Shown: positions 4,534 to 46,674 of the stretch, one piece after another
Layout: each line of letters starts with the position of its first letter
How positions within the stretch are numbered: the stretch's first letter is position 1
Program-made: the position numbers and the translations under genes
Notes under the pieces: generated by a model
Told to the model about the DNA's origin: nothing
The model's input: the letters and a program-made list of their open reading frames with translations, nothing else
Database searches by the model: none
Assembly: GCA_030737835.1 (NCBI GenBank)
Contig: CM060855.1
Location: 4,768,478-4,832,477 of the forward strand
DNA from: Acorus gramineus
Lineage: Eukaryota > Streptophyta > Magnoliopsida > Acorales > Acoraceae
Length of the DNA: 64,000 nt
Reading direction: 5' to 3'

Positions 4534-4713
4534 TGTTAAAGAATCATTATTAGGATAATATTATATCTTTATTGTCATTATTGTGATATTATTAGTTTCC
4601 TAGTTTTCCTAGATTCCTTATCTGTATTTTAGGATTTCCTCTATGTATCTATAAATAGAGCCCTTTGGCTCCTCTAATATAATAACAAGAATTCCATTTT
4701 CTTTATTCTAACA
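4534..4713 (+). repeat. 5' LTR of the retroelement
   Basis: A 180-bp direct repeat with TG...CA ends. It contains TATAAATAGAG near 4651, a plausible TATA box for the element's own transcription, followed by a T/A-rich tail. It matches the 3' LTR almost base for base. Confidence 0.92.
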
Positions 4714-4726
4714 TGGTATCAGAGCC
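4714..4726 (+). other. primer-binding site (tRNA-iMet)
   Basis: TGGTATCAGAGCC directly abuts the 5' LTR. This is the standard plant Copia/TRIM primer-binding site complementary to the 3' end of initiator methionyl tRNA. Confidence 0.9.
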
Positions 4727-4849
4727 TCCACCTCAAAAATCCTAGATCCACAAAAGCTTCTCTTTCTCTTCCCCGCTTCGATTGAAGAGTCTTCAATCGG
4801 AGCGGGGGAGGAATTTTGCTGGCGAGATCTAAAAACACCTCTTGGAGGA

Positions 4850-5405
4850 ATTTTGCTCGCGTCGTGCCCTCGCCGTCGTGCCCTTGCCGTCGCCGTCGTG
4901 CCCTTGCCGTCGTGCCCTTGCCGTCGCCGTCGCCGTCGTGCCCTTGCCGTCGTGCCCTTGCGTGCCCTGCCGCGCGGTTGCAACTGTCCGGATTTCCCGG
5001 GATCTGTCGCGCTGATCCTGCCCGGATTTCCCGGGATCTGCTGGGACAGCTCCTGCCAGCCTGTCTCGAGCTGTCCGACCCGGCATCCGACCCGGGCGCT
5101 CCCAGCATCCGACCCGGATCCGCGAACCCGGCCCAGCGACCCGGATCCGCGAACCCGGCCCGCTCCTCCGGCCGCCCTCTGCCGCCTCCGGCCGCCCTGC
5201 CGCCGCCTCCGGCCGCTCTCCGCCTCCGGCTCCTCCGGTCACCTCCGGTCGCCGTCGTGCTCCTCCGGCCGCCCTCTGCCGCCTCCGGCCGCCCTGCCGC
5301 CGCCTCCGGCCGCCCTCTGCCGCCTCGGGCCGCTCTCCGCCTCCGGCTCCTCCGGTCGCCGTCGTGCTCCTCCGGCCGCCCTCTGCCGCCTCCGGCGCCG
5401 CCTTG
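4850..5405. repeat. GC-rich triplet-like low-complexity block inside the LTR element
   Basis: The first part is built from GCCGTCGTGCCCTT units and the second from CCGGCCGCCCTCTGCCGCCT units, repeated imperfectly many times. GC content is far above the rest of the window. Long open frames occur on both strands because stop codons are scarce in such sequence; they encode only Arg/Ala/Pro/Gly-rich strings and are not called as genes. Confidence 0.85.
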
Positions 5406-5548
5406 AGACTTCAAAACCACTAAATCGGTCATAACTTTCTCTCCGGAAGTCCGATTAAGGTGATCCAGGAGTCCATTTTGCTCGATTTTTCGTTCTCTAT
5501 GCATCTGTGTGATTCTTTTCTTCATCCGAGATCTCTACGATCCTCCTC

Positions 5549-25927: not shown

Positions 25928-26000
25928 CCCAAATCCTTGAAAACTCTCCCTCTCAGAGAAAACAAAAGAGCTCCTTTTTTGCCAATTTAGTCCAACAAAA

Positions 26001-28447
26001 ATGTCATCTTTCAACGACTACCCCTCTCGAAACCACTACACCCCCTCCGCCCCTCCCTTTCCCGATCCCCTCTCCTTTCCGCCTCGGCCCGCCCAGCCCG
26101 CCTTCCCCCCCTCCTACTACCTCGGCCAGCCCGCGCAGTTCCCGCCAGGAACCCATCCCGAGATCATCCGAAGCTTCTCGGCCGTCGATCGTGACGGGAG
26201 CGGGTCCATCGACGAGGGGGAGCTTCAGGTGGCCCTCTCGAGAGGGTACCAGAGGTTTCCCCTCCGGACGGTCCGGTTGCTCATGTTTCTCTTCAAGAGG
26301 GGGTCCTCTTCCAAGATCGGTAGGAATTTTGGGTTTCTATGCAAAAAAATTTTGGGGGGTTTGGTGAAAAATTGGGTTTTTTTGTGTGTTTTTAGGGCCG
26401 AGTGAGTTTGCGGCGTTGTGGAGCTGTCTCGGACAATGGCGGGTGAGTTTGATTGATGATTTTTTAGTTTAATTTTGTGATATTATAATAATAATACTTC
26501 TATTTGTTTCAAAGTATAATAGTTTCAAAAGATTCTGAACTTTTTCGGATTATGTATTTATATGTAGAACATACTTCTATTTGTTGAACTATGTACGTGT
26601 CTTTAATACATTTAGAGTATGTATATTTGATAGATTTAAATGCGACCGCACGTGGTATTTTTGAGGCCAGCGCATATGATCTGGTTTGTGCAGTTTGAAC
26701 AATTGACCGTTCAAACGGCCTGATATCCATTCGAATGGTAGAACTGTTGTTCGAATGGGGTTCGAACAGTAGTTCAAAATGTTCAAAAAAATGAATGTTT
26801 TGAGAACGAATTATGTTTGAACTTCATTTGAACAACATTTTAAAAAAATAATAACGACCGTTCGAACGAACGTATGAGTCCGTTCAAATAGTCAATGTGC
26901 GACCGCATATGACGACCACACATCCTGATCTCATGTTACTTTGAAACATTGGTGTATTCATTTAATTTTGATGATTTATCACAGTTTTTAGAATCTAAAA
27001 ACTAATCTTAATTGTCATTTTGGAATTCTCATCCATCACGGAATTTTTTTAAATTTGGATGTATTTGTCATACTAATAATGAAATATATTTAGAAAATAG
27101 TTTAATTATCTTTGAACTTTTACTATGCTTATCCCGTATGATCTACAAATGAATTTTGAGACTATTACTATGGTTTCATGGATGCAATCTGTTGAGGATT
27201 TGGAGATGTTTGGTTTTGTGGGTGGGATTGTGATTGTTATGAATTGGAATCTGATGAGTTTGACATGTGTGCTGAGCTTGGGATCTGCAATTGTGGATAT
27301 GAATATGGGATGATTGATTGAATAAATGATGGTGAAAAATTGGAGAATGTTTTGTTGACTTTCATTGGGACAATCAAATATACTTTGTTAGATGAAGCAT
27401 GTAATATTTATTTTGAAATATATATATTTCATTTTTATGAACTTATAAATATTTCTTCATTACATGTAGTATGTACCAGAGAAAAAAAAATCAAACCATG
27501 TGGAACAGTATGCGGAAGTGTCTTTTAACATTATTCAATAGATTATAATTGAAGAAGATAACATTGATGGTAGCATAACTTGTTATACTGGTTGATGTTA
27601 CCATTTAGATTCTTCAAGATGGTTACACTGATGCTAATCAATTTGTGAAACAAAATTTCTCAACTTCGAATGCAGGCCATCTTTGAAAGGTTTGATAGAG
27701 ATCGCAGTGGAGAAATTGACTCATCGGAATTGAGAGATGCGCTGCTCAGTCTCGGATATGCGGTTCCACCTTCAGTTCTACAGCTTTTAATCTCCAAATA
27801 CGATGAAGGAGGTCGTCGTAGAGCTGCATTGAATTTCGACAGCTTCGTCGAGTAAGTCCTTTATCTTTTCAGTGAGATCTCAATCAATACTTTAAACACT
27901 GAGTAGCGTTACTGTATTTGACATCTTTGTTTTTTTTTTTTAATGCACAGGTGTGGAATGATTGTGAAGGTGAGTCTCCAATTTCTTACTGTTGTTGGAG
28001 TCCTTTGAAAGAAAAACTCTCATGGTTGAAAGACATTTGCAATTGAATACAAATATTGGATTGCTAGATGAGTGCTGAAAATCTAAAAGAATAACAAATT
28101 AGTAAGGAACAATTTAGAACTCCTCCTTCCCAATAATCCAATTCTTGCATGCTCAGTGGAAGAGAGGAATGTAGGAAAATTTTGTTTAGGATGCCCAAGA
28201 ATGACCACAGGAATAGAGGACTCTCAATGAGAATAAACTGATAATAATTTCAACCATGGTTCCTACACAATGGAAAGAACATTTGATTGTCTATGCATCT
28301 TATGTCTACTAAAAACCTGTCTCTTTTTTTTTTTCACTGCAGGGGTTAACTGAAAAGTTCAAGGAGAAGGACACGCGATACACGGGCTCCGCAACGCTCA
28401 CTTACGATGCGTTCCTGCTGATTATCATACCATTTCTGGTAGCTTAG
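26001..28447 (+). CDS. penta-EF-hand calcium-binding protein (CML48/49/50-like)
   Basis: A calcium sensor of the ALG-2/sorcin type. Five exons: 26001-26319, 26396-26442, 27676-27851, 27951-27969 and 28343-28447. Phases close at 666 nt, 221 aa, with GT-AG introns. Residues 1-52 are Pro/Tyr/Ser/Phe-rich, the disordered N-terminus typical of PEF proteins. The first EF loop is D63-RDGSGSIDEG-E74 and the second canonical loop D129-RDRSGEIDSS-E140; both have all chelating positions. The later hands (SKYDEGGRRRAALNFDSFVE and the C-terminal TYDAFLLIIIPFLVA) are degenerate, as is usual where the last hands serve dimerisation. Exon 4 is a 19-nt microexon (ECGMIVK). From the family, the protein probably shuttles to membranes when Ca2+ rises. 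The target is unknown. Confidence 0.93.
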
Positions 28448-31940: not shown

Positions 31941-32081
31941 GATTACTAACCCATTCAATTTAATTGGAGCATTGGTGCCTTGGTGGTGGAGGCAGGACCT
32001 ATCAGGTGGGGGGGGACCAAGGGGAGATTTTTTTTTCTTACGGTACTTCTTTCAAATTTCTAAGAAATAGGGGGGTTCATC

Positions 32082-32089
32082 TATAAAAA
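32082..32089 (+). promoter_or_regulatory. TATA box of the MGNC-type gene
   Basis: TATAAAAA, 88 bp upstream of the ATG at 32170. Confidence 0.75.
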
Positions 32090-32169
32090 TCCTTCCTCTT
32101 TTAAATACAAACCATCCCCTCCTCTTTTCTACCCTCCAAAGCAATTGTAGAAAGCACAGATTCATTTCA

Positions 32170-32532
32170 ATGGGGAATTGCTTTTCCATGCAAAAGAAGT
32201 TCATTAAGCCTACAAAGAGGGATGAAAAAGTCACTAACCTTTCGATCTCTGGTGCAATCTCAGACCCTCGTCTTTCACAACCTCAGACACAGTCACACAG
32301 TGACCGAATCTATTATCTCTTCCAGACGAAATTGGCTGCAGCTGAGGCCAGTCAGGGGAGCAGTGGAGCTATTAGAATTAAAATTGTGATCACAAAACAG
32401 GAGCTGAAGGAGGTGCTCTCTCACCTTTCAGAAGAACAAGTGAAAGTCAACAATGATGGAGACAATGCACGCAGAGGGAAGGCGTGGAGACCTGTATTGG
32501 AAAGCATACCTGAAATGTGGAGTCTTCAGTAG
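32170..32532 (+). CDS. small MGNC-type plant protein, probably N-myristoylated
   Basis: A single exon of 120 aa. The N-terminus is MGNCFSMQKK: Gly2 with Ser6 fits an N-myristoylation signal and Cys4 could be palmitoylated, so plasma-membrane or endomembrane anchoring is likely. Residues 1-20 are basic (KKFIKPTKRDEK), which would help membrane contact. The middle is Ser/Gln-rich and probably disordered. The C-terminal half has IRIKIVITKQELKEVLSHLS and then RGKAWRPVLESIPE, two blocks I recall from a family of uncharacterised short plant proteins; no enzyme motif is present. A TATA box lies at 32082 and the ATG is the first in the likely transcript. The function is unknown. The fourfold repeat at 31781-31940 lies in its promoter. 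Confidence 0.8.
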   Translation: MGNCFSMQKKFIKPTKRDEKVTNLSISGAISDPRLSQPQTQSHSDRIYYLFQTKLAAAEASQGSSGAIRIKIVITKQELKEVLSHLSEEQVKVNNDGDNARRGKAWRPVLESIPEMWSLQ

Positions 32533-37041: not shown

Positions 37042-38578
37042 TTCTTCTTTTTTTTTTCTTTTGTTTGGTTTGCTTTCGTTTGAGTTTTGGTTTTCTTTTT
37101 TATTCTTCTCAATTTTTGAGATTATTTTATTTTTGTAAAAAAATAAAAAAATATATTTTATTATTATATTGTCCAAATTATTTTTATTTATAATTTTAGA
37201 ACACCAAAATAAATTTTCATAATTGCTGATCTTTAATTTATTTTTTCTTTTATTGTTATCCTTTTTAAAAATTGTCTTTGATTGTGATTCTGATTACTTT
37301 TTATTGAATTTTTTGTCCAAATTTTTTTATTATGATTTTAAGAATAGCCCAACCAAAAATTTTAATGGGTTTATTCTTAAAATTTCTCTTTTTTTTTTGT
37401 TTTTCATTTTTTTTATTTTTGTCTTCTTTAAAATATGCATTTGCTTGTCTTTATATGAGTTTCTGTTGGGTTATTGGATTTTTATTTTGTCTTAACTTTT
37501 TGTTTTGTATCAGTGATTTTGAAAACACACCTATTAAAAATTCTTAATAAGATTTTTTTAAAAAAAAATTGCTGATGGTTGTTTTTCCTTGTCCTTTTTT
37601 TAGTTTTTTTATTTTTACTTTTAGCCCATTTAAGTACTTTGATTTATTTTCATGTAATTGGATTTTTTTTCTTCCAAAGTTTTCTCTAACTCAGTTAAAA
37701 ATTCTTAATGGGGTTTACTGTTTTTTTTTTTTCTTGTCCTCTTTTAACTTCATCTATTCACTGAATTTTTTGTATATGAACTTTCTTTTGATTAGAAAAA
37801 ATTTGGGATGATAATTATAGTGAAGGTTGTTTTTATTTGATATTTTTTTATTTTTTTTTATGGGTGGGGGATGCTCTATTAATGTATATTTGTTGAAATA
37901 TTGCATTTCTAATATCTTATGTATATGTGATTCCCATATTTTTTATGTACACAGAAATGGCTATGAACCAATGACAAAATAAATTATAATCAATTTAGGG
38001 ATCTAGATCAATCATAATAACACACATCATTCTATCACTTTTTAATAAGAGTATTATCATGTTTGGGATCGATCACATTAGTTTGGGTAATCAATTTGTT
38101 TGACATTTTTCTTTATTACATCAAAATTCCTACTGAAATTGGTTGTCCATGCATTGTCTACATCACTGGGTTGCTATTTTATGATTACATGTCATACACT
38201 CATCAACCATGTTTCATTTTCTAAAGCCACAAGTTTCATGCAATTTGTCCTGTGAAAAAAAAAAAAATTAAAAGATCAAACAATGGTTCATGAATCATGA
38301 TAGAATTAAAAATGTATTTCATTCATTAGAATATATATTTCATATTTTTTATTTACACGCAATCTTCATAAGCAATCCGTGTTTATTACATAACTGCATA
38401 TAAGACTGTCTCCAACTTTATCCAAGTACTGCAAATAAGATTGTCTCTAACTTTATCCAAGTAGCTGCATTGACACACAATATTTCACAAACCTTTAGCA
38501 TCAGGGAAACATGCATCATGTTCAGAAAGAATCAATGGTGAGGACAGTTTATTTTCAGTCTGTTGAACATGTTTTGGT

Positions 38579-39074
38579 TGAGCCTGTTAATTATCCGAAA
38601 AAAGTTTGAATCCGATTTGAATCCATATCCGAAAAATCAGAAATATCCGATATTCGAAGATCCAGAGTGCTCAGTCTATCCGATCCAAAAAAATGTGCGG
38701 ATATGGATATCAGTCTATCCGATCCAAAAAATATTCGTATTCGACATATATTATAAAAAAATTATTATTATTATATATTGCAATATTGTTATCTTGTATG
38801 ATTAATCACAATGATAATATATTATAATGCTATTAAATTTTTAATATATGATATCTAAAATAGATAATAAACTTTAAAATCTCAATTTTAATTTTAATGT
38901 TTTCTCTAAAATAACACTTAATTATCCAAATTAATGTTAATATTCAACCATGTTAATTATCCGATCTGTATCCGAAGGGATCTGAATTCAAAAATTGATA
39001 TCCGTATCCGAATCTGAAAGTTAGGATATGAATATTAGCATATCTGATCCGTATCCGTCTGATTGACCGGCTTA
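38579..39074. mobile_element. hAT-like MITE with perfect 8-bp target duplication
   Basis: GTTTTGGT lies at 38571-38578 and again at 39075-39082. The ends are TGAGCCTGTTAATTATCCGA and, reverse-complemented, TAAGCCGGTCAATCAGACGG. The subterminal regions are filled with ATCCGA/TATCCG hexamers, as in hAT-type MITEs where such motifs bind transposase. The left 100 bp align with the right 100 bp of the element inside the PPR gene (42694-43549). No coding capacity. Confidence 0.88.
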
Positions 39075-39446
39075 GTTTTGGTCACTGCTGATGCCGGATG
39101 GTGAATTTTGTTCTGTTGATCATGTTATGGAAGCAATCATGCAAGTTTTTTGTGTTCAAACTTCACATGTAAATAATACTAATAATGTCAGAGCATCCCA
39201 TCTCCCTCCAAAAAGCAATGGTTGATTTCATTAAGATTGAACTGTCTTTTAGATTATTAATTTACATCCACTGCGATAAATCAATCTTCCGCTGCAATAA
39301 GGTTCTTCAGAATCAGGTATATAAAAATCTTCAGATACTCTATGTGGATGAATATGGATATACCCACATAGATTCTTAATTCATCTGAATGTAGGTATTC
39401 TACAATGTATCAAGTTTCATCAGTGCTACACGTTACTCGGCAGCTC

Positions 39447-41845: not shown

Positions 41846-44122
41846 TCATGACTTTCTCCTCCTACAAAGCATACCCATCAAAGCATTATACGTCGCAATG
41901 TCATATATAAACCCTGCGTCCAACATTTCTTCAACAACCCCCTCCCCTTCCCTCCTTTTCCCCTCCCTCGCAAACCCCGCCACCAACACCTCATAAGTCG
42001 TGCCGTCCGGGCAGAACCCCTTTTTGGAAGCCAAGACCCTCAACGCGTTGGCCTCCACCGACCTCCCCATCTCGCACATCCTCTCCAAGAGACCGTTGAA
42101 TGTCACCACGTCCACGATGATCCCTTCCCCAACCGCCCTCTCTGCCAACGCACGCGCACCCTCCACATCCCCCGAAAGGTTCAAACCCTCCACCAGCGCC
42201 GCACATGCGACCGCACTCGGCTTGCACCCTCCCACCCAGAGTGCCCGCACGACCTCCAATGCTGACCGCACCTCCCCCATCCCGCACAGAGCCTCAACAA
42301 GGCGGAGGCAATCAAACCCATCAGGTACTGCCCCCCGCCCTGCGAACTCAATCACCAAGTCATGACCCTCCGTGACCCGTCTGGCCCGACAGAGCCCATC
42401 GACAAGTATCTCACACGTGGCGACTGAGAACTCAAAACCCATGTCTAGCATCTCACGTGCGACGCCCACCCCCGCCTCGAACTTCCCCTCCCGGAAGAAC
42501 CCGCAAATCAGCGAATTGAAGCTGACGACGTCGGGCTCGCATCCCTTCAACTTCATTTCCCTGAACAGACCCACCGCTGCATCAAACCTTAAATTGCGCA
42601 CACAACACGCGATCAACGCGTTGAACGTGCACGAGTCGGGGCAGACCCGATCAACGCGGACCATCCGATCATACACCGCAAACACCCTGTCACTAAAGCC
42701 TGTCAGCTGATCGTATATGCATCACATAACTTATTGTATGTATTCCATCATTTCCTAAATCATTCTGATACTTATATTAATATTGAAATTCAAATCTTTT
42801 CTAATCCACAACGAGCATGGATATTTTTCAATAGTTTGGGATCAAGCAACAATTAAATCAAGAATTCAGGACTTATCGTCTTCTTGATAATCATACAAAA
42901 AGAATGCAATAACTATTTAAATGTTGCAAATCAATCATGCAACATAATTGAATTCATACAATATAAATATAAACATATTTAAGATATTTTCTTAAAGCAT
43001 ATACATTGATATCCGTATCCACCCTCCAGATATTAAAATATTGGATAAAGTCTCATTTTACAAAAACAGATTCAGAGCGAATACAGATATTTTTTTTAAT
43101 ATCATCATTACTATAATTGAATTTCCACAATATCAAATACAACCACATATAAGATATCCGTATCCACACTCCAGATATTCAAATACTTTTTTCAAATGCA
43201 GATTCAGAGCGAAAACATATACTTTTCAGGCTTACCTATCACGATCGTGACCCCTCGCTAGGCCGCCGATCAACACATTGTACGTGGAGATGCTCAGGCA
43301 CCCATCTATCGCACGATGCATATTGTCGAACAGTTATTTTCTTAGAGAGTATGCATACAAATATAATGCAATAACTATTCAAATTTTTTAATATCATCAT
43401 TACTATAATTGAATTTCAACAATATCAAATACAAACACACATAAGACGTCCGCATTCGCACTCCAGATATTCAAATATCAGATAATTTCAAACTCTTCAA
43501 ATACAATTCAAAGCAAATACAGATATTTTTCAGATAATCAACAGGCTTACCTATCACAATCACGCCCCCTCGCAAGGCCGCCGATCAACACATTGTACGA
43601 GGAGACGCACGGGCGCCCATCAATCGCGCGACGCATATCATCGAACAACTCCTCCGCGTCATCGAAGCGGGAGGCGCGACAGAGTGCGTCGACGGCGCGG
43701 CGAAAGATGGGCTCGATTTCGGGGCAGGAGAAGATGGAGGCCTTGTCGGAGCAGGGGCAGGGGTGGTGGGAGAGCATGGAGCGGAGGAGGGAGGGGATGG
43801 GGTCGAGGCGGGAGGAGACGATGAGGGAGCGGAGGAGGTGGGAGTAGAGGGTGTGGTCGTGGCGATAGGAGTCGACGCGGGAGGAGGCCCAGGTGAAGAC
43901 GTGGAGGTCGAGGTGGGAGAGGGAGGGGTGGTGATGGAGTTTTTTGGAGAGGAAGTGGAGGAGGTCTTGTGGGGTGAAGGAGGGTTTGAGGTGGGTTTGG
44001 ATGAAGTGGGTCAGAAGGTGGTGGGTTTGGAGGGTGGTGGTGGTGGTGGGTGGTGGTGGGAGGTGGTGGTGGTGTGTGGGTTTGGGAAGGTGGGGTTTGG
44101 AGAGGAGTCTCTTGGTGGCCAT
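41846..44122 (-). CDS. P-class pentatricopeptide repeat protein, interrupted by a spliceable transposon
   Basis: Likely an organelle RNA-binding PPR protein. Two coding blocks on the minus strand, 44122-43551 and 42692-41846, give 472 aa when joined at AG|GTAAGCC ... CTTTAG|TGAC. The N-terminus is Pro/His/Thr-rich (MATKRLLSKPHLPKPTHH), possibly a targeting peptide. PPR repeats follow with near-perfect 35-residue spacing (TFNALIACCVRNLRFDAAVG, VSFNSLICGFFREGKFEAGV, TYEVLVAGFAREGKRREGEG, ATYNALMGMLC). There is no E or DYW domain. The 856 bp between the blocks is a hAT-like element flanked by an 8-bp duplication, inserted inside the repeat beginning SYNVLIGGLARGRDCDR. Without the element that repeat has 36 residues; with splicing it has 38 (extra Ser-Asp). 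Both blocks are fully open, which argues against an old pseudogene, but loss of function cannot be excluded without transcripts. Confidence 0.8.
42694..43549. mobile_element. hAT-like element inside the PPR coding sequence
   Basis: Flanked by CCTGTCAC (42686-42693) and CCTATCAC (43550-43557), an 8-bp target duplication with one transition. The ends are TAAAGCCTGTCAGCTGATC and, reverse-complemented, TAAGCCTGTTGATTATCTGA. The latter aligns over about 100 bp with the hAT-like MITE at 38579. Read in the sense of the PPR gene, the duplication's last G plus TAAG makes a GTAAG donor, and the far end TTTA plus the duplication's first G makes a TTTAG acceptor. The 856 bp include an internal tandem duplication, so the original insert was shorter. 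Confidence 0.85.
43235..43332 (-). repeat. duplicated PPR exon end with splice donor inside the intron
   Basis: This 98-bp stretch is a diverged copy of the end of the first PPR coding block (43550-43647), including TACAATGTGTTGATCGGCGG and the AG|GTAAGCC junction. The two copies are 315 bp apart. It also carries the same transposon end and one side of the target duplication. Confidence 0.88.
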
Positions 44123-44291: not shown

Positions 44292-45242
44292 TAGGCCTGT
44301 CAATAAGTCAGGTCCAGATCCATATCAAGTCTCGGGTCAGGTCAACAAACTAACTGGCTTAGGTCAGATCAGGAGAGACTTGAGAGGTCGAGGAACTTTT
44401 TGAGGGCGTCTTCATTTGTTTTTCTTTTTATTTCTCTTGCCCTATTTTTTTAAGAAGAAAATAAAGGGTTTGAAAAAGGAGAGGGAGAGGAGAAGAAAAA
44501 TGTGAGGAGGGTTTTGATTTATGGTGCATTTGGTAACACGGTTTAGGGGTGATTCTGCTTTTTAATTAAGCAGAAAGCTAAAACGTGTTATCAAATGCGT
44601 TTCATGAAGCGTACTTAATTAAAAAGTTATCTTCAACTTTTTAGTGTAAAATTATTGTTTTTTAAGAAGTACAGAAAATGCACTTTCTAGAAAATCAAGT
44701 CTATTTAAACCATTTTATTCAAAATTATTTTTCAAACATGTTTCTAACGCTACCTTAGTGAAAGAGCATTGCACATTAAAATGGTGGAGACCACACTTTC
44801 CTGGGTTGAATTTTTTTCATTTCAATTTTTATATGATGAGTTTGAATAAACAGAGTCCAATGTATTATAAATAGTTTTTTCACTGTTTTTTATTTTTTAA
44901 TGTTAATGAGAGAATATTTGAAATACAGTTTAGATTATTCTGCTTTTACGTGAAATCAAAAAGTTATAAAAATATTTCAAATGCTTTAAATTATAAATGA
45001 TTATTCAGTATTTGGTTATAAAGGTTGGGCTGGATCATAGGTGTTGGATTGGATCATAAATAAAAAAAACCATATAGTATTTGAATTGGGTCGAATCGGG
45101 TCTCGGGTTTATAGGATCAGGTCAGGGTGGACCCAGATTTGACCCTTTTGATTGTCGGATCTTTCAGGTAAGGTATTTACATCTTTTATCAAGTCAGGTT
45201 TTGATCAGGTCTAGGTACACTTGGGACTCTTTAACAAGCCTA
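44292..45242. mobile_element. hAT-like element with GGGTCGGG-type subterminal repeats
   Basis: Flanked by CTCTTTAT (44284-44291) and CTCCTTAT (45243-45250), 8 bp with one mismatch. The ends are TAGGCCTGTCAATAAGTC and, reverse-complemented, TAGGCTTGTTAAAGAGTC. The subterminal parts are rich in GGTCAGGT and CGGGTC motifs. The ends resemble those of the hAT-like MITE at 38579 (TAAGCCGGTCAATCAG). No transposase frame. Confidence 0.75.
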
Positions 45243-45284: not shown

Positions 45285-45378
45285 TAGTCCAAAAAACTCC
45301 CTCAGTGATTCTCTTCAATAAAATTTCTTTATAGTCCAAAAAACTCCCTCAGTGATTCTCTTCAATAAAATTTCTTTA
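45285..45378. repeat. 47-bp perfect tandem duplication
   Basis: TAGTCCAAAAAACTCCCTCA at 45285 is repeated exactly at 45332, and the following GTGATTCTCTTCAATAAAAT block is also identical. The identity implies a very recent event. Confidence 0.9.
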
Positions 45379-45448
45379 TAAGGCTCCATATATGTGGGGA
45401 GTCTCATAGAGAAACTGTACATTCCTTACATTAAAAAAACAAAAATTT

Positions 45449-46209: not shown

Positions 46210-46674
46210 TCAATAGAGCTCAGACTCTTTGTGGGTGTGGATGACGCAGTCTGCAGTGGGGTACGCGACGCAGGTGAGCACGTACCCCTCCTCCACCTGA
46301 TTGTCGTCCAGGAACGACCCGTCCGACTGGTCCACGGACCCCTTCACCATCTTCCCCGCGCACGTCGAGCACGCCCCGGCCCGGCATGAATAGGGGAGCT
46401 CCACCCCAGCGGACTCCGCAGAGTCCAGGATGTAGGAGTCATCAGGCGCCTCGAACTCGTACTCCACCCCCTCCGGATCGATCAACTTCACCTTGTAGAC
46501 AGCCATCGCAGACGTGCGGAATCCGGATGAGCACCTCAACCCAAAAGCGCCTGACACATTTTTTGAGGAACTCAGGGACCTGGAGGTCAGGGGAGTGGCG
46601 GAGGTACGGTTACTCCGTAATGCAGTGGTGGTGTGGCTGAATGTGCATACAGTGGGGAGCCTCACGGTCGACAT
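46210..46674 (-). CDS. [2Fe-2S] plant-type ferredoxin, plastid
   Basis: A soluble electron carrier of the stroma, passing electrons from photosystem I (or from NADPH via FNR in non-green plastids) to FNR, nitrite reductase, thioredoxin reductase and others. It is 154 aa in one coding exon. Residues 1-57 are a Ser/Thr/Arg-rich transit peptide; the mature protein starts near [20 protein letters not shown]. Cluster cysteines C97, C102, C105 and C135 lie in [14 protein letters not shown] and YVLTCVAYP. The C-terminus [10 protein letters not shown] is typical; the family's usual IETHKEEEL has one change. The ATG at 46674 is 12 nt inside the exon (acceptor CCAG at 46687-46690). The 5' leader is interrupted by a 2.15-kb intron and continues at 48839. 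Leaf or root isoform cannot be decided from sequence alone. Confidence 0.95.

Follow-up and report, generated by a model that had tools for sequence, protein, structure and literature searches.

A probable old transposon insertion that may be spliced exactly as an intron from a PPR gene of Acorus gramineus

Insertions of the maize transposons Ds (reportedly described by Giroux et al. 1994) and Ds1 (reportedly by Dennis et al. 1988 and Wessler 1991) are said to be spliced as introns. In Ds1, according to excerpts of PMC5432752, the distance from donor to terminus is 12, 22 or 33 bp. The excerpted parts of Gozashti et al. 2022 (PMC9860276) state that mRNA length is unchanged in most introner families and that some families carry a 5' splice site and co-opt the 3' site. 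The source of new plant introns is unsettled: according to the same excerpts, introners among animals and land plants occur in only two groups, both of them animals, whereas Table 1 of Yenerall and Zhou 2012 (PMC3443670, in excerpt) includes Oryza and Zea among the species with intron gain by transposon insertion. According to the excerpt of PMC4256211, transposons had not been linked to any intron gain that reached fixation; among the titles and abstract beginnings listed from the open-licence PMC literature, none reported a land-plant intron that is fixed and derived from a transposon, and the available portion of a review of plant miniature inverted-repeat transposable elements (PMC12595863) yielded no new-intron case. 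Here we describe a transposon inside a PPR gene in a 64 000-nucleotide stretch of the Acorus gramineus genome (contig CM060855.1; the whole stretch is called the window, and all positions refer to it). The window contains the element, the duplications that flank it, a second copy of the element, a junction that restores the coding sequence exactly, an open reading frame and a PPR repeat of orthologue length.

The host gene is on the minus strand, starts at 44122 and ends at 41846, and PPR repeats were matched in both of its halves. Exon 1 (43551..44122, minus strand, 572 nt, ATG at 44122) ends in ...GATTGTGATAG, and exon 2 (41846..42686, minus strand) has 841 nt including the stop codon. When the exons are joined at the exact-restoring junction they encode 470 residues. 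The closest matches are angiosperm PPR proteins, several of them labelled At2g36240-like; the first ten are 48–52% identical over 90–99% of the query, and the 48 homologues that were aligned are 41–53% identical. This near full-length similarity indicates that the host gene is the orthologue of At2g36240. In a midpoint-rooted tree comprising 26 of the 48 homologues, the Acorus protein is placed beside the seven monocots included (support 98/94).

The non-autonomous transposon is 856 bp long (42694..43549, minus strand) and has the terminal inverted repeats (TIRs) TAAGCCTGT / TAAAGCCTGT. Read in gene sense, from 43549 to 42694, it begins TAAGCCTGT and ends ACAGGCTTTA; its longest stop-free run is 84 codons. 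It is flanked by an 8-bp target site duplication (TSD). The upstream copy, GTGATAGG (43550..43557, minus strand), is coding sequence, and the proposed intron begins at its last G; the downstream copy, GTGACAGG (42686..42693, minus strand), is the source of the acceptor GTGACAG|G. The copies are identical at seven of eight positions, and with the ends held fixed the chance of an identity of at least 7/8 is about 0.0013, as measured on random pairs in the window. A preliminary description of this DNA had proposed an 856-bp element with inverted ends and an 8-bp duplication inside a PPR gene; its coordinates, lengths and letters are confirmed, and so is the duplication.

This anatomy by itself is weak, because short pairs of TIR and TSD are common in the window. 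There are 63 pairs of a comparably loose kind in this AT-rich DNA (spacing 200–1200 bp, 9-bp TIR, 8-bp TSD, at most one mismatch in each), and the anatomy alone was rejected as proof for that reason. Neither copy of the family is among the 63, owing to a TIR indel or two TIR mismatches. Judged from the sequence, decisive support for transposon identity comes from the second family member, a complete element of 496 bp (TGAGCCTGTT...GACCGGCTTA; 38579..39074, plus strand) located about 4 kb from the PPR element. It is bounded by a perfect 8/8 duplication, GTTTTGGT, at 38571..38578 (left copy, plus strand) and 39075..39082 (right copy, plus strand). A blastn comparison of the PPR element with the window gave one clear relative outside the element itself, at 38581-38670 in the left end of this copy (E 5e-8 in this comparison, 3-5e-8 for the left end overall); all remaining matches beyond the element region had E values of at least 0.013. 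The left and right 100-base ends of the two copies align, and in each case none of 1000 dinucleotide shuffles scored as well. Since this second copy combines a perfect TSD with alignable ends, it fixes both termini and the 8-bp length of the duplication. Cross comparisons of the ends were weaker (6/1000 shuffles reached the score of the left end against the reverse-complemented right end, and 323/1000 that of the right against the reverse-complemented left), so that inverted similarity is largely confined to the short TIR. A degenerate TIR pattern had seven matches in the window with at most three mismatches, against 3.5 expected; the matches without mismatch are restricted to the two known left ends, and the right end of the second copy has three.

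Another candidate TIR element, at 44292-45242 (TAGGCCTGTCAA... / ...CAAGCCTA), has a 7/8 duplication, CTCTTTAT / CTCCTTAT, and is located a short way 5' of the PPR start codon, likely in the promoter or 5' untranslated region. It was considered as a third member of the family and rejected, as it gave no blastn match to the second copy at E 0.01.

The element had been described as hAT-like, a name that draws on the length of its duplications: hAT duplications are 8 bp, as are GTGATAGG/GTGACAGG (7/8) and GTTTTGGT/GTTTTGGT (8/8). The TIRs of hAT elements begin YARNG by the familiar consensus. Only one of the four ends, TAAGC, TAAAG, TGAGC and TAAGC, fits this consensus, and the element is therefore named hAT-like only.

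The proposed intron is a phase-2 intron of 864 nt (42687..43550, minus strand; AG|GTAAGCC ... GTGACAG|GG), which we infer to be removed by the spliceosome. Its donor, AG|GTAAGCC, is composed of bases of the duplication followed by the end of the element; that the last G of the upstream duplication and the TAAG of the element would form the donor had been pointed out in the preliminary description and is borne out by the sequence. On the acceptor side, all ten AGs in the last 114 nt up to the exon edge were tested. Two of them keep the frame, at -6 (CTTTAG|TGAC) and at 0 (GTGACAG|GG), and the remaining eight lead to stops at residues 191–205. The junction at GTGACAG|GG gives 470 residues with no internal stop and the spliced sequence GATTGTGATAG|GGTGTTTGCG, i.e. 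GATAG|GGTGTTT. Since donor and acceptor occupy matching positions within the two duplication copies, the ancestral frame would be restored residue for residue. The junction at CTTTAG|TGAC gives 472 residues, also with no internal stop, the added pair being Ser-Asp (spliced sequence GATAG|TGACAGG).

The preliminary description had selected CTTTAG|TGAC. Its 472-residue frame is indeed open, but the AG within the downstream duplication appears to be the better acceptor, as it would restore the old protein exactly and at the orthologue length (470 residues) that the gene has without the element. The Ser-Asp pair had been predicted to be absent from orthologous proteins, and this holds for most of them: 45 of the 48 homologues cover the 15 residues around the junction and 42 of these show no change in length. 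One of the others, P0039, lacks residues further on from the junction. The other two, both from Brassicaceae, depart from the prediction, with one (P0032) and two (P0034) extra residues directly upstream of the junction; given these, a gain of two residues at this point is not impossible.

The intron has the GT-AG ends, restored frame and branch-like site of a GT-AG intron. The branch-point match is CTGAC (42702..42706, minus strand), the only CTRAY in the last 130 nt by the usual consensus; its A (42703) is at -17 from the acceptor in the duplication and at -11 from CTTTAG. The GC content of the intron is 30.6% and its T content 37.4%, against 62.6 and 58.3% GC in the exons and 22.4% T in the coding sequence. 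Such a contrast is usual for plant introns. The single difference between the two copies of the duplication is a T to C change in the downstream copy. Since a copy of the exon end inside the intron (see below) also has T, the C is probably derived, and it would have turned the acceptor TAG into CAG (position -3). Measured against the acceptor consensus, CAG|G is the stronger site. In an unspliced transcript, the frame of exon 1 would end after codon 191 at a TAA supplied by the element.

An addition to the preliminary description is a tandem duplication within the intron that comprises the end of the exon, the donor and the 5' part of the element. The copy of the exon-1 3' end (43236..43332, minus strand) is 84.5% identical to the exon over 97 nt (Kimura two-parameter distance, K2P, 0.176, no gaps); a decoy donor, AG|GTAAGCC, comes next at 43235. 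This second donor was rejected, as a transcript using it would keep the first TAA and stop prematurely. Copy B of the 5' part of the element (43092..43235, minus strand) is 86.0% identical to copy A (43384-43550) over 143 aligned sites, with a K2P of 0.159 and three gap runs. Copy C, of subterminal sequence (42892..43094, minus strand), is more diverged (68.8% over 205 columns). Tandem Repeats Finder detected no array inside the element, and the internal duplication thus rests on blastn and MAFFT. The offset between the duplicates is 315 bases at the start and 292 at the end, from which the original element would have been about 540–560 bp long, a size close to that of the second copy (496 bp).

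The insertion is older than the 14–16% divergence of these duplicates, because the tandem duplicate already holds the exon end, the donor and the 5' part of the element. The suggestion that the intron is newly born is wrong if newly born is taken to mean recent. With commonly assumed plant rates, a rough estimate of the age would be ten to a few tens of million years.

Over all 470 codons the coding frame is free of stops and frameshifts, despite the divergence of the copies in the intron. Under neutrality, substitutions would leave the frame without a stop with a probability of 0.16, and the chance of escaping indels is 4e-7 at the observed rate and 0.05 when the lower Poisson bound of that rate is used. 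Taken alone, the stop-only value (0.16) and the lower-bound value for indels (0.05) would not be decisive. Of 95 positions with a conservation of 90% or more among 35 orthologues, the protein keeps 87, including 58/62 in exon 2. Between the exon and its intronic copy there are 14 differing codons, five synonymous and nine with amino-acid differences. At these nine positions, the residue commoner among homologues is in the exon seven times (two of them thin, 3 v 1 and 2 v 1), in the copy once (C172S, Ser being common) and in neither once.

The full explanation that we consider probable is an old transposon insertion in the PPR gene that is removed by exact-restoring splicing. A non-autonomous TIR transposon making 8-bp duplications would have entered the coding sequence at GTGATAGG in an Acorus lineage. 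The last G of the upstream duplication, together with the TAAGCC end of the element, would then have provided a near-consensus donor and the AG of the downstream duplication an acceptor, so that removal of 864 nt restores the ancestral frame. Later, the T to C change would have arisen at acceptor position -3 and the intron would have been enlarged by the tandem duplication. By this account the intron should be lacking in relatives, and the insertion persisted because it was spliced. That the intron was gained rather than lost is suggested by the protein alignments and the TSD: homologous proteins, which do not themselves show introns, mostly run through the insertion site without extra residues. 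Several observations weigh against this explanation. The two copies of the duplication are not identical, and there is a 1-nt indel in the TIR. CTTTAG|TGAC also keeps the frame, with P0034 carrying two extra residues nearby, and a branch-point distance of -17 is short of the usual range as commonly understood. The branch of the Acorus protein in the tree is long (0.82, median 0.42) and exon 1 keeps 29/33 conserved positions, a lower share than in 31/35 orthologues; both would also fit relaxed constraint. There was no Acorus orthologue among the best 120 of 122 matches of the 470-residue query in the protein database, for which scoring was restricted to the 7995 candidates sharing most words, nor among the 13 matches of the exon-2 query. 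Acorus calamus proteins are present in this database (see the ferredoxin below). The lack of an orthologue is hard to read, because the searches were limited to proteins of 0.55–1.75 times the query length (about 258–822 residues for the 470-residue query and about 153–488 for exon 2) and would miss a 191-residue model of exon 1 or a long fusion. Possible reasons are a missing gene model, a model of a length that the filter discards, or loss or decay of the gene.

Some of these observations would also be expected if the insertion had broken the gene, with the element retained, a TAA stop after codon 191 and a pseudogene in which decay has yet to reach the frame. Retention puts the stop right at the junction, the length-limited searches gave no Acorus protein of the family, the branch is long and the conservation of exon 1 somewhat low. 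We consider this distinctly unlikely, as the element predates a duplication with a K2P of about 0.16, yet 470 codons are free of stops and frameshifts and 87/95 conserved residues are kept. A transposon-derived intron with the acceptor CTTTAG|TGAC, made of the element end and the first G of the duplication, with Ser-Asp gained, or with the two acceptors forming a tandem pair 6 nt apart, is conceivable though on balance unlikely. Its 472-residue frame is open, the AG is preceded by the pyrimidines CTTT, two Brassicaceae homologues have one and two extra residues directly upstream, and Aureococcus introners add residues in a comparable manner (PMC9860276, in excerpt). It would, however, add two residues where 42 of the 45 covering homologues keep their length. 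The only nearby CTRAY has its A 11 nt from this AG, too close for the spacing generally expected, and CAG|G is superior by the general consensus. The duplicated exon end and donor inside the intron would also suit an old intron that either preceded the transposon or was formed by tandem duplication of exon sequence (the AGGT duplication model), the transposon-like ends being secondary. This is hardly credible: both duplicates already hold transposon sequence after the donor, the donor straddles the terminus of the element, and an independent copy, which has a perfect TSD of its own, matches both ends. Formation by tandem duplication of exon sequence was rejected for the first of these reasons.

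Other features were noted in the window. At 45287-45382 there are two adjacent direct copies of a unit of about 45–50 bp (AGTCCAAAAAACTCCCTCAGTGATTCTCTTCAATAAAATTTCTTTATA), read by eye. A root-type ferredoxin is encoded by an uninterrupted frame (46213-46674) and shares 95% identity with a protein of Acorus calamus; the next complete matches are about 70–73% identical, the others listed are at most 82% and a second Acorus ferredoxin is 73%. This agrees with an origin of the window in Acorus or very close kin. A frame at 8675-8947 matches part of a eukaryotic-type carbonic anhydrase and one at 15794-16138 matches GST, and matches to EF-hand (25941-26402) and PADRE (32071-32529) are both below the curated cut-off. 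On both strands, the region 4711-5534 contains several long open frames that overlap; it belongs to the 4-kb block with the highest GC content in the window (0.425). One of these frames was tested and had no Pfam match.

Among the closest known cases are those in maize. Like Ds and Ds1, the Acorus element is a plant DNA transposon with an 8-bp duplication in an exon that would be spliced out. The maize cases are reportedly mutant alleles, whereas the Acorus element is an old, decayed insertion in an open frame. The Ds1 donors are at a distance from the terminus, and the donor of the Acorus element is the terminus itself. The AGGT transposon-insertion model, as excerpted from PMC3443670, is also similar, as a TSD supplies the splice sites and the coding sequence is unchanged; that model duplicates AGGT itself, whereas in Acorus the donor takes its T from the end of the transposon. 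The introners of algae and other eukaryotes follow the same splice-site logic (PMC9860276, in excerpt), and on sequence evidence the ends of the element and its TSD likewise supply AG|GTAAGCC and GTGACAG|GG. The introner example to which it is likened (2C in the same excerpt) has 4-bp TSDs and is without TIRs. Introners form families of many similar introns; of the present family, the window has yielded one intronic member and one further copy. It is decidedly doubtful that the transposon has founded further introns in the genome as an introner family of a land plant would, its TIR (G|TRAG at the 5' end) making a donor wherever a target ends in G and the duplication giving the acceptor. As the same mechanism operates in introners and Ds, it is a known one, and an old, apparently lasting plant case would be a rare addition. 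If our explanation is true, the Acorus locus is a clear natural example of a lasting transposon-derived intron, with 14–16% internal divergence and its anatomy still legible.
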